From Nitratireductor alexandrii (lineage in GTDB: Bacteria; Pseudomonadota; Alphaproteobacteria; Rhizobiales; Rhizobiaceae): DNA of 37,500 nt. Below the pieces are notes generated by a model, which was not told where the DNA came from, did no database searches, and saw nothing but the letters and a program-made list of their open reading frames with translations. The stretch spans positions 1 to 37,500 of the forward strand of contig NZ_RBVY01000014.1 of the NCBI RefSeq assembly GCF_004000215.1. Direction: 5' to 3'. Made by a program: the position numbers and the translations under genes. Position 1 is the first letter of the stretch. The number at the start of each line of letters is the position of its first letter. Of the stretch, positions 28,421 through 33,325 are shown piece by piece.

Positions 28421-28471
28421 ACGCCCGTCGACCTTATATCCGCTCCGGCCCGGTGCCGGCGCGCGCCAATG

Positions 28472-28502
28472 ACGCTCCTCCCCGCCGGGGAGGGGCGTTT
28501 TT
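28472..28502 (+). terminator. Strong Rho-independent terminator after clpB
   Basis: ACGCTCCTCCCC (28472-28483) pairs with GGGGAGGGGCGT (28487-28498): 12 pairs with one wobble and a GCC loop, followed by TTTTT (28498-28502). It lies 51 bases after the clpB stop and isolates the ABC transporter operon. Confidence 0.92.
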
Positions 28503-28556: not shown

Positions 28557-28572
28557 TGATTGTTGACAATCA
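28557..28572. promoter_or_regulatory. GntR/FCD-type operator of the ABC transporter operon
   Basis: TGATTGT-TG-ACAATCA is a perfect inverted repeat with 7-base arms. Its core TTGT-TG-ACAA fits the FadR-subfamily GntR pattern TNGTN(0-3)ACNA. It overlaps the -35 hexamer at 28563-28568, so binding would block RNA polymerase. The natural candidate regulator is the GntR/FCD protein encoded at the end of the same operon. A further TTGTA/TACAA pair flanks it at 28547-28551 and 28573-28577. Confidence 0.65.
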
Positions 28573-28589
28573 TACAAAATCGGTAAAAT
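28563..28589 (+). promoter_or_regulatory. Promoter of the ABC transporter operon
   Basis: A perfect TTGACA (28563-28568) inside the operator and TAAAAT (28584-28589, five of six) with a rather short 15-base spacer. Transcription would start around 28596, about 22 bases before the first gene. The short spacer suggests a weak or tightly controlled promoter. Confidence 0.55.
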
Positions 28590-28617
28590 CTGAAAACCGT
28601 CAATGGGAGCAACGATC

Positions 28618-29457
28618 ATGATCCACCATCTTCAATCCCGGCTGGCGGCCGTCGCCTTGGCGATCGTTGCCATGCTGGCCGTTTCGACCGGGGCCTTTTC
28701 CCAGGAAAAATCGACCTGGGACACGATCCAGGACAGTGGGGCGCTGCGCATCGGCGTCACCCAGGCGCCGCCGTGGTTCTTCAAGAATCCCGCCACCAAC
28801 GAATGGACGGGTCTCGGCGTATCCGTCGGCAACGCGATGGCCGAAGCGCTGAACGTGAAACTCGAGCCCGTCGAAGTGACCTGGGGCACGGCGGTGTCGG
28901 CCCTGCAGGCAAACCAGATCGACATCATGTTCGTGCTGGACGCCACGCCCCAGCGCGCGGTCGCGGTCGGCTTTCCGGCCCAGCCGCTGCTTTATTACGC
29001 GCTGGCGGTACTGGCCGACGACGAGTTGACGATCGAGACCTGGGACGATCTCAACAAGCCCGACATCAAGATCGCCGTGACGCAGGGCACAACGATGGAC
29101 AACTACGTCTCCGGGCGTCTGGACAAGGCGGAAATCCTGCGTTTCCCCTCCAATGGCGAAGCGGTCGCCGCCTTCCAGTCGAAGCGTGTCAACGCCGTGT
29201 CGCTGTTCCATCCGCCGCTGATCGCCATGCGCCAGAAGATCGGGCGCGGACAGATCGTTTTGCCCAAGCCGATCCGCCAGTCGACCTCGTCGGCCGGCGT
29301 GCGCCTGGAAGCCGATACACGCTTCCGCGATTGGGTGAACACGGCCATCTCCTACTACTACCAGACCGGCCAGACCCAGGAATGGTACGAGCAGTTCCTG
29401 AGCGAATACGGCGTCGACCCCGAAACGGTGCCGGCGATCCGTCGCGAGGACTGGTAG
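28618..29457 (+). CDS. ABC transporter periplasmic binding protein, polar amino acid family, atypical site
   Basis: 279 residues: a signal peptide (hydrophobic 9-26, cut near 28) and a family 3 (SBP_bac_3) binding domain. The arginine that holds the ligand carboxylate is present (Arg113 in DATPQRAV). The aspartate that usually holds the alpha-amino group (the second D in the GlnH-type RADAVLHD) is replaced: the aligned stretch is RVNAVSLF, putting Phe197 at that place and Asn192 at the first D. The ligand may therefore not be an ordinary L-alpha-amino acid. ATG 28618 is preferred over 28603 because GGGAG lies nine bases upstream. It is first in a six-gene operon with two permeases, an ATPase, an aminotransferase and a regulator. 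Confidence 0.9.
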   Translation: MIHHLQSRLAAVALAIVAMLAVSTGAFSQEKSTWDTIQDSGALRIGVTQAPPWFFKNPATNEWTGLGVSVGNAMAEALNVKLEPVEVTWGTAVSALQANQIDIMFVLDATPQRAVAVGFPAQPLLYYALAVLADDELTIETWDDLNKPDIKIAVTQGTTMDNYVSGRLDKAEILRFPSNGEAVAAFQSKRVNAVSLFHPPLIAMRQKIGRGQIVLPKPIRQSTSSAGVRLEADTRFRDWVNTAISYYYQTGQTQEWYEQFLSEYGVDPETVPAIRREDW

Positions 29458-29511
29458 CGCGGCCAAGGACGGGGCGCCGCGGCGCCCCGTCGCCACGGGC
29501 AGGAGCTGACG

Positions 29512-30192
29512 ATGGGGTATGAGTGGGACTTTGCGGTGGTTTTCCGCAATTACGACCTCTTGCTGCTCGGGCTTGTCAACACGCTCAAGGTCACGGGCCT
29601 GGCCTTGCTGTTCGGCGTGCCGCTCGGCCTGCTGCTCGCCTTGCTGCGCCTCTACGGAAACCGGGCGGTGCGGCTTCCCGTCGGATTCGTCATCGAATTT
29701 CTGCGCACGACCCCGCCAATTGCGCAATTGTTCTGGTTCTTTTTCGCAATGCCGATCCTGATCGGCGTCGAAATCGACCCGTTTCGGGCCTCGGTCTTGA
29801 CGTTTTCGCTGCAATCCTCGGCGTTTTTCGCCGAAGTTTTCCGCGGCGGCATCCAGTCGATCGATTCGGGCCAGTGGGAGGCGGCCAAGGCCATCGGCAT
29901 GAACCGCAACCAAACACTCGGCCGGATCATCCTGCCGCAGGCGGTCAAACGCATGATCCCGGCATTCCTGGAACGCGCCATCGAACTGATGAAAACGACC
30001 ACCCTGGTCAGCACGATCTCCTATGCCGACCTGCTTTACCAGGCCAACAGCATTGCCCAGTCGACCTACCGCACGATCGAGGTCTTCACGGTTGCCGCGG
30101 CGATGTATTTCGTCGTCATCCTGGCCTGTTCGATCGCGGTCCGGCGGCTGGAAAAACGTCTCGCGCGCAGCGGCGAGACGGTCGTGAACTGA
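29512..30192 (+). CDS. Amino acid ABC transporter permease 1
   Basis: 226 residues, about five membrane helices, HisM/HisQ type. The cytoplasmic EAA loop that docks on the ATPase is QWEAAKAIGMNRNQTLGRII (about 123-142) followed by LPQA. LRTTPPIAQLFWFFF (about 63-77) is the typical conserved helix of the family. It is the first of two different permeases, which should form a heterodimer in the inner membrane. It starts 54 bases after the binding protein gene and is followed after 11 bases by permease 2. Confidence 0.93.
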   Translation: MGYEWDFAVVFRNYDLLLLGLVNTLKVTGLALLFGVPLGLLLALLRLYGNRAVRLPVGFVIEFLRTTPPIAQLFWFFFAMPILIGVEIDPFRASVLTFSLQSSAFFAEVFRGGIQSIDSGQWEAAKAIGMNRNQTLGRIILPQAVKRMIPAFLERAIELMKTTTLVSTISYADLLYQANSIAQSTYRTIEVFTVAAAMYFVVILACSIAVRRLEKRLARSGETVVN

Positions 30193-30203
30193 GGGAGGGC
30201 GCC

Positions 30204-30869
30204 ATGGACCACAATTGGGATTTCGCCTCCGTCCTGGCCAACAAGACGCTGCTTTTGATCGGGCTGAAGAACACCCTGGTCCTGGGGTCGGTCTGCCTCG
30301 CGCTCGGCCTGTTCTTCGGTCTGTTCGTCGGCGCGGCGCGGTTTTCGGGAAAGAGCTGGCTTTATTATCCGGCCACGGCCTTCGTCGAACTGTTCCGCAA
30401 CACGCCCGTTCTCGTCCAGATCATGTGGTTCTTTTTCGCGTTTCCGATCATCGCGCCGTTCAAGATCGACGCCTTCACCGCCGCCACGCTGGGCCTGACC
30501 CTCAACACGGTGGCGTTTTCCTCCGAGATCTATCGCGCCGGGCTGCAATCGATCCACAAGGGACAATGGGAAGCCGGAAAGGCGCTGGGAATGAGCTACT
30601 GGCAGCAGATGCGCCGGGTGGTGCTGCCGCAGGCCGTGCGCCGGATGCTGCCGGCCTTCATGAACCGGGCGGTCGAACTGTTCAAGATGACCTCGCTCGC
30701 CTCGGTCATCGCCTATGGCGAATTGATGTACCAGGCCAAGGTGGTGTCGACGATCTCGTTCAATCCGATCGAGATGTATACCAGCGTGGCGCTGATCTTC
30801 TTCCTGGTGCTTTTCCCCGCAACGATCCTGGTGCGCCGCTTCGAGGCGCGCGACACATTCCGACGGTGA
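30204..30869 (+). CDS. Amino acid ABC transporter permease 2
   Basis: 221 residues, again five helices of the polar amino acid permease family, with LFRNTPVLVQIMWFFFAFPI (about 62-81) and the EAA loop QWEAGKALGMSYWQQMRRVV. It differs clearly from permease 1, so the channel is a heterodimer. ATG 30204 follows GGGAGG closely. Its stop TGA (30867-30869) overlaps a possible GTG start of the ATPase gene. Confidence 0.93.
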   Translation: MDHNWDFASVLANKTLLLIGLKNTLVLGSVCLALGLFFGLFVGAARFSGKSWLYYPATAFVELFRNTPVLVQIMWFFFAFPIIAPFKIDAFTAATLGLTLNTVAFSSEIYRAGLQSIHKGQWEAGKALGMSYWQQMRRVVLPQAVRRMLPAFMNRAVELFKMTSLASVIAYGELMYQAKVVSTISFNPIEMYTSVALIFFLVLFPATILVRRFEARDTFRR

Positions 30870-30874
30870 ACGCG

Positions 30875-31660
30875 ATGACAGAGGTTCTACGAATCGAGGG
30901 CTTGCACAAATCCTTCGCCGAACTGGAGGTTCTCAAGGGGATCGACCTGTCGGTGAACAAGGGCGAGACCGTGGTGCTCTTGGGGGCGTCCGGCTCCGGC
31001 AAGTCGACCTTGCTGCGCTGCGTCAATTTCATGGAAATCCCCACCAGCGGCCGCATCCACCTGGAAGGCAAGGCCATCGGCAGCGCCCGCAACGGCCGCG
31101 TCGCCTACGCGGAGCGGGAATTGACGCAGCTCCGGTCGCGCGTCGGCATGGTGTTCCAGCATTTCAATCTGTTCCCCCACATGACCGCGCTCGAAAACGT
31201 CATGGAGGGGCCGCGCACGGTGCTGAAATGCGATTCGTCCGAATGCCGCCGCCGCGGGGAAAAATATCTCGACAAGGTGGGGCTCGGCTGGAAGGCCGAC
31301 GCCTATCCGTCCCAGCTTTCGGGCGGACAGCAGCAGCGTATTGCGATCGCGCGCGCACTGGCCATGGAGCCCGAAATCATGCTGTTCGACGAGGCCACCT
31401 CGGCGCTCGATCCCGAACTCGTCGGCGAGGTTCTCGAAACGATGAAGGAACTGGCCGAGGAAGGCATGACGATGCTGATCGTCACGCACGAATTGGGGTT
31501 TGCCTACACCGTTGCCGACAAGGTGCTGTTTCTGTCCGAGGGCAGCATCCTCGAGCAGGGCACGCCGGCCGAGGTGCTGACCTATCCCCGCCAGGACGCC
31601 ACCAAAAATTTCCTCCGCGGCCACAATATGTTCCGCTTGCCCGAACCCCAGATTGACTGA
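30875..31660 (+). CDS. Amino acid ABC transporter ATP-binding protein
   Basis: 261 residues, GlnQ/HisP type. Walker A GASGSGKST (37-45), Q-loop VFQHFNLFPH (93-102), signature LSGGQQQR (148-155), Walker B IMLFDEA (168-174) and the switch histidine in IVTHE are intact. It powers the permease pair. ATG 30875 is chosen; an in-frame GTG at 30866 overlapping the permease stop would add three residues. A slightly unusual insertion between helices (PRTVLKCDSSECRRRG) carries two cysteines. Confidence 0.94.
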   Translation: MTEVLRIEGLHKSFAELEVLKGIDLSVNKGETVVLLGASGSGKSTLLRCVNFMEIPTSGRIHLEGKAIGSARNGRVAYAERELTQLRSRVGMVFQHFNLFPHMTALENVMEGPRTVLKCDSSECRRRGEKYLDKVGLGWKADAYPSQLSGGQQQRIAIARALAMEPEIMLFDEATSALDPELVGEVLETMKELAEEGMTMLIVTHELGFAYTVADKVLFLSEGSILEQGTPAEVLTYPRQDATKNFLRGHNMFRLPEPQID

Positions 31661-31668
31661 CCCTGACC

Positions 31669-32613
31669 ATGAACACCATCGATCGAATCGACAGCCGCAC
31701 CACCCACGATGCCGACGAGGACATCCGCAATCGCGATATCAAGATCTACGTCAACGGTGAGATCGTTCCGCGCGACGAGGCCAAGGTCTCGGTCTATGAT
31801 TCCGGGTTCATGCTCGGCGACGGAATGTGGGAAGGCATGCGCCTCTACAAAGGCAAATGGGCTTTTTTCGACGAACACATGGACCGCTTCTTCGATTCTT
31901 GCAAAGCGGTCTCGCTCGATGTCGGCACCGACAGGGCCGGCATTCTGGACGCCTTGACGCGGACGGCGCAAGCGAACGGGATGACGGACGACGTTCATTG
32001 CCGGCTGATGCTGACGCGCGGCGTCAAAGCGCGGCCGTTCCAGCATCCGCGCCTGTCGCGCTCGGGGCCCACGCTGGTGATCATCATGGAGCACTCGAAA
32101 CCCGTCGACAGCCTGCAGGGCCAGGGCATCCGGCTGGCCACCGTTCCCCAGGTGCGCGGCCTGCCGATGTCGCAGGACGCCAAATATAACAGCCATTCCA
32201 AGCTGAATTGCGTGATTGCGGCCCTACAGGCCGAACAGGCCGGCGCCGACGAGGCGCTGATGCTCGACCCGCACGGGTTCGTGAACACCACCAATGCCTG
32301 CAACTTCTTCATCGTCCGCCGCGGCGCGGTGTGGACCTCGACCGGGGATTACTGCATGAACGGCGTCACCCGGGCCAAGGTGATCGAGGTGTGTCGCGAA
32401 AACGGAATCCCGGTCTTGGAGAAGAATTTTTCGCTCTACGAGACCTACGGGGCCGAGGAGGCGTTTTTGACCGGAACGTTCGGCGCGCAGACACCGGTCG
32501 CCTCGATCGACGGCAAGCCGATCGGCGACGGCAACCGGCCCGTCATGGCGCGCATCCGCCAGCTCTACAAGCAACTGGTCGAGCGCAACATCGCGGATCA
32601 ATCGCATGATTGA
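31669..32613 (+). CDS. Class IV aminotransferase, atypical PLP pocket
   Basis: 314 residues of the fold-type IV PLP family (branched-chain and D-amino acid aminotransferases, 4-amino-4-deoxychorismate lyase). The Schiff-base lysine is most likely Lys172 in QDAKYNSHSKLN, and the phosphate-binding loops are MNGVTRAKV and TGTFGAQTP. The glutamate that binds the pyridine nitrogen (E in the usual VxExxxSN pattern) is Thr207 here: FVNTTNACNFF. The spacing from the lysine (35) fits Glu193-Lys159 of E. coli IlvE (34) with one inserted residue. It should move an amino group to or from a keto acid in the cytoplasm; the substrate is probably what the transporter imports. It starts eight bases after the ATPase stop and overlaps the regulator gene by eight. 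Confidence 0.87.
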   Translation: MNTIDRIDSRTTHDADEDIRNRDIKIYVNGEIVPRDEAKVSVYDSGFMLGDGMWEGMRLYKGKWAFFDEHMDRFFDSCKAVSLDVGTDRAGILDALTRTAQANGMTDDVHCRLMLTRGVKARPFQHPRLSRSGPTLVIIMEHSKPVDSLQGQGIRLATVPQVRGLPMSQDAKYNSHSKLNCVIAALQAEQAGADEALMLDPHGFVNTTNACNFFIVRRGAVWTSTGDYCMNGVTRAKVIEVCRENGIPVLEKNFSLYETYGAEEAFLTGTFGAQTPVASIDGKPIGDGNRPVMARIRQLYKQLVERNIADQSHD

Positions 32614-33325
32614 CAACACGCTGATCAAGCCGGTTTCCGACAGCACCCTGCGCAGCCGCACGGTCGACCAGATGAAGCTGCTGATCGTCTCGGGCGAGCT
32701 GCCGGCGGGAAGCCGGCTCACCGAAACGCGGCTGGCATCGGCCTTGGGCATAAGCCGCGGGCCGCTGCGCGAGGCGATCCGCGAACTGGTCGATATCGGC
32801 CTTCTGGTCAGCAAGCCCTATAAGGGGCTGTTCGTGCGCGAGGTGACGCGCGGCGATCTCGAAGAAATCTACTCGCTGCGCACCGCGCTGGAGCAGTTCG
32901 CGTTCAAGGAATGCTGGAGCAAACGCACCCCGGCCGCCCTCGCCGATCTGCGCAGGCGCAACGAAGCGCTCGCCGCCACCATAGAGGAGGGGACCAATCC
33001 GCTCGGCGCGATCGAGGACGAACTCCATCTGCACAGCTGGTGTTACGAAATGTCGAACCATCAGCTTCTGTTGCAAAGCTGGAACCGGCTGAAGCCGAAT
33101 CTGCAATTCTATTTCGCGATGCACCAGCAGGCGCATGCGCGCCGCGGCCCTTCGCGCCAGGCGCACGACACCTATATTCGCCTTGCCTCGGGCGACGATC
33201 TCGACGCGATGCTGGATCATCTCGCCGACCATATGCGCCAGGGCCTTCAGACCACGATCGGCTTCATCGAAACCGGCGAGCCGGGCCACGCGGCCAGGCG
33301 GGCCGGCGCCCGGACCGCGGACTGA
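32606..33325 (+). CDS. GntR family regulator with FCD domain
   Basis: 239 residues. An N-terminal winged helix (about 15-80; RLTETRLASALGISRGPLREAIREL is the recognition region) is followed by an all-helical FCD ligand domain (about 85-215). Likely metal ligands are Glu139, His143, His187 and His209; the first is usually Asp. FCD proteins are mostly repressors that release DNA when they bind a carboxylate effector. It overlaps the aminotransferase by eight bases, so it is made with the operon it probably controls through the operator at 28557. The C-terminus is Arg/Ala-rich. Confidence 0.92.
   Translation: MIDNTLIKPVSDSTLRSRTVDQMKLLIVSGELPAGSRLTETRLASALGISRGPLREAIRELVDIGLLVSKPYKGLFVREVTRGDLEEIYSLRTALEQFAFKECWSKRTPAALADLRRRNEALAATIEEGTNPLGAIEDELHLHSWCYEMSNHQLLLQSWNRLKPNLQFYFAMHQQAHARRGPSRQAHDTYIRLASGDDLDAMLDHLADHMRQGLQTTIGFIETGEPGHAARRAGARTAD

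Follow-up and report, generated by a model that had tools for sequence, protein, structure and literature searches.

We analysed a 37,500-nucleotide stretch of Nitratireductor alexandrii DNA (contig NZ_RBVY01000014.1, hereafter the window), which carries a six-gene operon encoding an ATP-binding cassette (ABC) importer, a protein with the fold of class IV aminotransferases and a GntR-type regulator with an FCD domain, headed by a palindromic operator. The residues of the class IV protein set it apart from a normal TRANSAMINASE: it has lost both the Schiff-base lysine and the glutamate at the ring nitrogen, while the phosphate pocket is kept and no invariant lysine takes over. On balance, we favour the view that the operon regulates itself and imports a carboxylate lacking a free α-amino group, and that it would serve a class IV protein acting independently of lysine.

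The class IV protein matches PF01063 (Aminotran_4) with 141.6 bits (cut-off 28.5), and in NCBIfam it scores best against models of branched-chain and D-amino-acid transaminases, although none of the 18 models listed passes its cut-off. According to an excerpt of PMC12429042, the catalytic lysine of a fold-type IV transaminase (K158) binds pyridoxal 5′-phosphate (PLP), E194 lies at the ring nitrogen, and the PLP phosphate is held by one arginine and two threonines (R61, T223 and T260). In a HMMER alignment the catalytic lysine of PDB 5mqz corresponds to Asn174 of the window protein. When the phosphate roles in that excerpt are transferred to the window protein by alignment, the pocket appears intact: R73 and T234 are retained in all 92 rows compared (71 family members and 21 paralogues), and position 270 is threonine or serine in 71/71 members.

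These losses are a property of the family and not of one protein. Members were found at E 1e-60 or better in 26 of 199 genomes of the same bacterial family, own genome included, and all 26 have asparagine at the catalytic-lysine column, as against lysine in three class IV paralogues that the own genome encodes. We then used a set of 71 members assembled without motif selection, comprising these 26 hits, 16 of 20 plasmid hits and 29 of 40 other members of a phylum sample. Asn174 and Thr/Ser207 are each present in 71/71 (own protein included), and ten more phylum-sample members read afterwards agree at both positions, giving 81/81. In contrast, true class IV paralogues have lysine and glutamate at the two columns in 21/21 cases; this count leaves out two more paralogue loci for which no placement in the alignment was obtained, L224 and L037, the latter showing lysine in an earlier comparison. 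A wider tally gives asparagine in 116/116 loci but is biased, since 80 of these were found by patterns, one of which contains the motif.

The family alignments contain no invariant lysine (K120 is arginine in 3 of the 71 members and K178 in 22), and a catalytic lysine that has migrated to another position is therefore rejected as a general rule. K120 had been the only invariant lysine in a first alignment (A1), and this was broken in the 71-member set. Four polar residues, D170, H176, N209 and Q125, are new invariants found in 71/71 members. In a quick tree, which warns of long branches, the 71 members occupy one side of a single branch with support 99. The family looks discrete, as 11 genomes searched to weak scores gave no match between E 1e-84 and 6e-35. 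Of 398 genomes sampled across the phylum, 41 (counting the N. alexandrii genome itself) hold a member, and at least 578 relatives, found by patterns, were confirmed among genome contigs. One member, SPO_RS21295, lies on the megaplasmid of the model strain Ruegeria pomeroyi DSS-3 (L138:7971-8930).

The solute-binding protein (SBP) also departs from the canonical amino-acid pocket. Among solved structures, the best matches are reconstructed ancestors of cyclohexadienyl dehydratase, followed by other family 3 SBPs. The carboxylate-binding arginine of the TPxR motif is retained (R113), and the column of the aspartate that holds the α-ammonium group in the LAO and GlnH structures is occupied by Phe197, followed by His-Pro. 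Among 25 SBP rows from related cassettes (L065 and L122 being one locus and L113 gapped at this column), the position is non-acidic in all 24 that cover it (F, V, Y or M). In the ten further family 3 SBPs that the genome encodes (E 1e-10 or better), the residue is aspartate in eight cases and threonine in two. One of the threonine-bearing proteins scores 220.1 bits, over the cut-off for the ectoine-binding protein EhuB; the other, a partial reading, reaches 147.3 of 190.9. Ectoine has no free α-ammonium group, so the loss of the aspartate in the SBP fits a ligand of such a sort. The importer as a whole has the make-up of the polar amino acid (PAAT) family, with matches to SBP_bac_3 (60.3 bits, cut-off 26.4), TIGR01726 for both permeases, which are thus of the HEQRo type (83.3 and 85.6, cut-off 42.2) and ABC_tran (128.1, cut-off 25).

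These results bear on several claims of an earlier note on this DNA. It had described an import, transamination and regulation operon for an unusual amino compound, with both ligand-contacting proteins off their canonical pockets and a ligand that is probably other than a common L-amino acid. The departure from both pockets is confirmed by the aspartate column of the SBP and the lysine and glutamate columns of the class IV protein. Import and self-regulation are supported. The unusual amino compound is borne out in part: the SBP comparison supports, by inference, a ligand that is not a common L-amino acid. Transamination is not supported, as no scored family member has the catalytic lysine or the ring-nitrogen glutamate.

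The regulator combines a GntR winged helix-turn-helix domain (53.7 bits, cut-off 27) with an FCD domain (44.2, cut-off 24.3), and it likely acts on the palindrome before the first gene, as judged from the association described here. The palindrome is a perfect 7-2-7 inverted repeat with the core ATTGT-NN-ACAAT. By eye, a TTGACA at 28563-28568 overlaps it, and a promoter scan listed no plus-strand promoter at the operator. The same core lies upstream of the SBP gene in other cassettes, which led us to score loci for the pattern ATTGTNNACAAT. A regulator homologue is found near the class IV gene in 29 of 134 loci, and 27 of these 29 have the pattern within 6 kb, compared with 1 of 105 loci lacking the regulator (Fisher p 7.5e-25; the pattern was derived from some of the loci scored, and the loci are not all independent). 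The two misses are a contig cut inside the operon (L082) and a locus with the near-match GATTGTCAACAACC (L130). Backward-read and permuted control patterns gave 0 sites against 32 real ones in 2.29 Mb. Within the 4.87 Mb assembly there are just two ATTGTNNACAAT sites, the operator being one, and none for the backward-read control. This rarity, together with the association between regulator and site, rules out a chance palindrome. The site heads ABC cassettes and also sits between divergent regulator and TAXI-type genes; thus, the regulator follows the class IV protein and not one type of transporter.

The second genomic site (G000:C2:191124-191135, L171:9625) precedes an amidohydrolase/ABC-importer locus that faces molybdopterin-dehydrogenase-like genes (names assigned by eye). 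Two genomes of the same genus (G068 and G152; L172 and L173) carry this site too, and another GntR regulator is read beside it there. A larger regulon was considered and rejected, the second site having yielded no enzyme in common with the window operon.

The six open reading frames (ORFs) lie on the same strand within 28618-33325 (Table 1). They are separated, in gene order, by 54, 11, 5 and 8 bases, followed by an 8-base overlap between the class IV and regulator genes, and Pfam and NCBIfam agree on all six families. The operon and its operator are real, and the earlier description of a packed six-gene unit headed by a matching operator is borne out by the ORF coordinates, the gaps, the family assignments and the perfect repeat. 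All six genes are under purifying selection, with dN/dS values in gene order of 0.067, 0.035, 0.087, 0.051, 0.062 and 0.105 relative to a genome of the same genus (pairs at greater distance are saturated at silent sites). The value of 0.062 rules out that the class IV gene is a pseudogene. On the 5′ side of the operon lies an ORF that reads by eye as a Clp-type chaperone, and a strong terminator-like hairpin at 28471-28499 separates the two; the scan gave 8 terminator-like sites against 4.4 in shuffled sequences. The ORFs on the 3′ side appear unrelated by eye.

Table 1. Features of the operon (positions in the window).
Feature	Position	Strand	Basis and remarks
Operator, perfect inverted repeat TGATTGT-TG-ACAATCA	28557..28572	.	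Repeat analysis, site scoring
Family 3 solute-binding protein (SBP)	28618..29457	+	Pfam/NCBIfam; alternative ATG at 28603; R113 of TPxR, F197 at the α-amino Asp column
ABC permease A	29512..30192	+	Best NCBIfam model EhuC, 180.8 bits, cut-off 196.95
ABC permease B	30204..30869	+	GlnP/EhuD-like, under both cut-offs
ABC transporter ATPase, polar-amino-acid type	30875..31660	+	Pfam/NCBIfam
Class IV aminotransferase-fold protein, N174 for catalytic Lys, T207 for ring-nitrogen Glu	31669..32613	+	Pfam, alignments, tree
GntR-type regulator with FCD domain	32606..33325	+	Pfam; likely acts on the 28557-28572 operator

The exact six-gene order recurs at eight other loci (L118, L121, L065, which is the same as L122, L113, L134, L135, L137 and L175) and is still found where the class IV protein is only 47% identical; the orders in L118, L122, L134, L135 and L137 are a combined reading of several locus comparisons, and the SBP of L113 is partly readable. 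In a variant arrangement the regulator comes first (L132, L136, L140, L144, L151, L152, L153 and L238), and others have the importer genes shuffled. The search for the same gene order elsewhere proposed in the earlier note was therefore positive. Its suggestion that the gene set is novel holds in part: literature searches gave no named pathway for it, but the order itself is shared and variants of it are common.

Some variants add a pyrroline-5-carboxylate (P5C) reductase gene (L140: 209.7 bits, over the proC cut-off of 196.75) and a gene for a ClC-type channel (233.3 bits with its best model, ClcB-like, under the cut-off of 482). The channel gene lies 3′ of the class IV gene in L140, L142, L144, L151, L136 and L238, most of which have a P5C-reductase-like gene nearby. 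At other loci the class IV gene accompanies a different ABC importer together with an OCD-type reductase (263.3 bits, cut-off 322), an MR/MLE enzyme or a sulfatase. Within 6 kb of the class IV gene, across 158 loci, there are 13 P5C-reductase-like, 5 OCD/Pyr2C-reductase-like and 6 MR/MLE neighbours, which fit imine or imino-acid chemistry.

Across the 158 distinct class IV genes an ABC importer is within reach in 41, a TAXI binding protein lies within 300 bases in 8 and a Sulfotransfer_5 gene within the same distance in 40, leaving 69 with none of the three. No class IV gene has two of them. The subset with at least 3 kb of flank (n = 112) gives 34, 8, 21 and 49, respectively. Sulfotransfer_5 adjoins the lysine-less class IV gene in L225-L235, L239, L240 and L099-L117. 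It matches in none of seven importer genomes and in all three sulfotransferase-type genomes, and a search for it elsewhere in the N. alexandrii genome found none (the three positive genomes matched, 14 named control genomes did not). A representative sulfotransferase has no PDB match at E 0.01. In plants or animals, ‘aminotransferase-like’ proteins fuse aminotransferase-like and sulfotransferase domains. Two Rhodobacterales loci (L097:10933-18765 and L150:7936-13845) have the class IV gene followed by sulfatase, DapA-family, D-amino-acid-dehydrogenase-like and further dehydrogenase genes, and the L150 sulfatase scores over the choline-sulfatase cut-off. A hydroxyproline-type pathway was considered as a clue to the ligand and set aside, since two loci are too few for naming a substrate.

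In the favoured mechanism, the PAAT-type importer would take up a small carboxylate without a free α-ammonium group, candidates being a cyclic imino acid, a betaine or an ectoine-like amidine. The GntR/FCD regulator would bind the palindrome before the first gene until the imported compound or a product of it relieves repression. In the cell the class IV protein would meet the imported compound and act on it without a Schiff-base lysine, most likely as an enzyme with a lysine-independent mechanism and an imine-like or N-substituted substrate. The cyclic-imine reductases at some loci suggest imino-acid chemistry, while sulfatase and sulfotransferase partners suggest sulfated metabolites. Several observations weigh against this proposal. 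The window operon itself has no reductase and has neither a sulfatase nor a sulfotransferase among its genes; most loci lack the ProC, OCD and MLE partners, which may belong to other steps; the 69 of 158 family genes without an importer, TAXI or sulfotransferase gene nearby indicate that the link to import is not general; and the class IV protein could be non-catalytic.

This last point is developed in an alternative that we regard as unlikely, though to be taken seriously, namely that the class IV protein is a pseudoenzyme, a non-catalytic sensor, carrier or partner whose ligand would be PLP, the imported compound or another molecule bearing a phosphate. The loss of lysine and glutamate alongside a preserved phosphate pocket speaks for such a protein, and its partners vary from genome to genome (ABC importer, TAXI, sulfotransferase or none) instead of forming one fixed enzyme series. 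However, the four invariant polar residues and the strong purifying selection resemble a working site, and the class IV protein is the sole candidate enzyme of the window operon. Far less probable is the transaminase for an unusual amino compound envisaged earlier, which has the fold, the PF01063 match and the transaminase identity of the best NCBIfam models on its side, but against it the replacement of both residues in 81/81 members and the lack of any invariant lysine. A lysine-less transaminase that performs a half reaction with pyridoxamine 5′-phosphate or free PLP would be compatible with the intact phosphate pocket, and lysine mutants of other PLP enzymes retain traces of activity. We nevertheless consider it very improbable, because the ring-nitrogen glutamate, which according to the excerpt of PMC12429042 supports the protonated cofactor needed for transamination, is lost as well.

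We give little credence to the idea that a stray gene has joined an otherwise ordinary operon for ectoine/hydroxyectoine (Ehu) import. Permease A and the ATPase come near to Ehu scores (180.8 of 196.95 for EhuC and 292 of 345.4 for EhuA), and the SBP lacks the aspartate, like EhuB. Yet no component reaches an Ehu cut-off (EhuB 67.1 of 190.9 for the SBP; EhuD 150.2 and 166 of 205.2), none of the six ORFs matches an ectoine-catabolism enzyme in Pfam or NCBIfam, and the same genome encodes the separate EhuB mentioned above.

Beyond the window, we tentatively raise the possibility of a widespread enzyme family, with the class IV protein as its founder, that is built on the aminotransferase fold, works independently of lysine and would handle a sulfated or imino-type metabolite; the window operon would be the minimal salvage form. 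Where one set of genomes has the Sulfotransfer_5 partner, others would have an importer in its place, which often comes with a GntR switch of its own, and the few loci with a sulfatase beside the class IV gene may belong to the same picture. Annotated plasmid records label family members as aminotransferase. If this label is wrong, numerous annotations and metabolic models hold an incorrect reaction, and evolution has put a fold associated with a single cofactor chemistry to a new and conserved use. The operator, the SBP and the regulator offer a direct route to the ligand.

In comparison with known systems, the fold, the importer class and the regulator class are familiar. Literature searches, with most subscription journals outside their coverage, found no description of the family-wide lysine loss, the regulator/operator pair or the alternation of importer and sulfotransferase, nothing usable on lysine-less fold IV proteins or on aminotransferase-like fusions, and no paper on the closest structure, PDB 7z79 (‘Aminotransferase, class 4’), or on 9j32. 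The 7z79 protein, which we take to be from Variovorax, aligns with residues 11-304 of the window protein (291.3 bits) and shares both the asparagine at the catalytic-lysine column and the NSHS[KR]LN motif, but, unlike the window protein, carries the Arg-type motif of a more distant clade. In PDB 9j32 the column holds lysine, and the protein resembles an engineered N-to-K form. A lysine-less relative has thus been crystallised, and its depositors are probably aware of the loss. Fold-type IV transaminases such as BCAT and D-amino-acid transaminase (PDB 5mqz, 1daa) have in common with the window protein the fold, His70-x-x-Arg73, G-x-T234 and the phosphate pocket, but possess the Schiff-base lysine and the ring-nitrogen glutamate that it lacks. 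The Ehu ectoine importer belongs to the same importer class and its SBP likewise lacks the α-amino aspartate, while the window importer stays under every Ehu cut-off and has different companion genes. Finally, the pairs of aminotransferase-like and Sulfotransfer_5 genes belong to the same lysine-less family, with the sulfotransferase in place of the importer.

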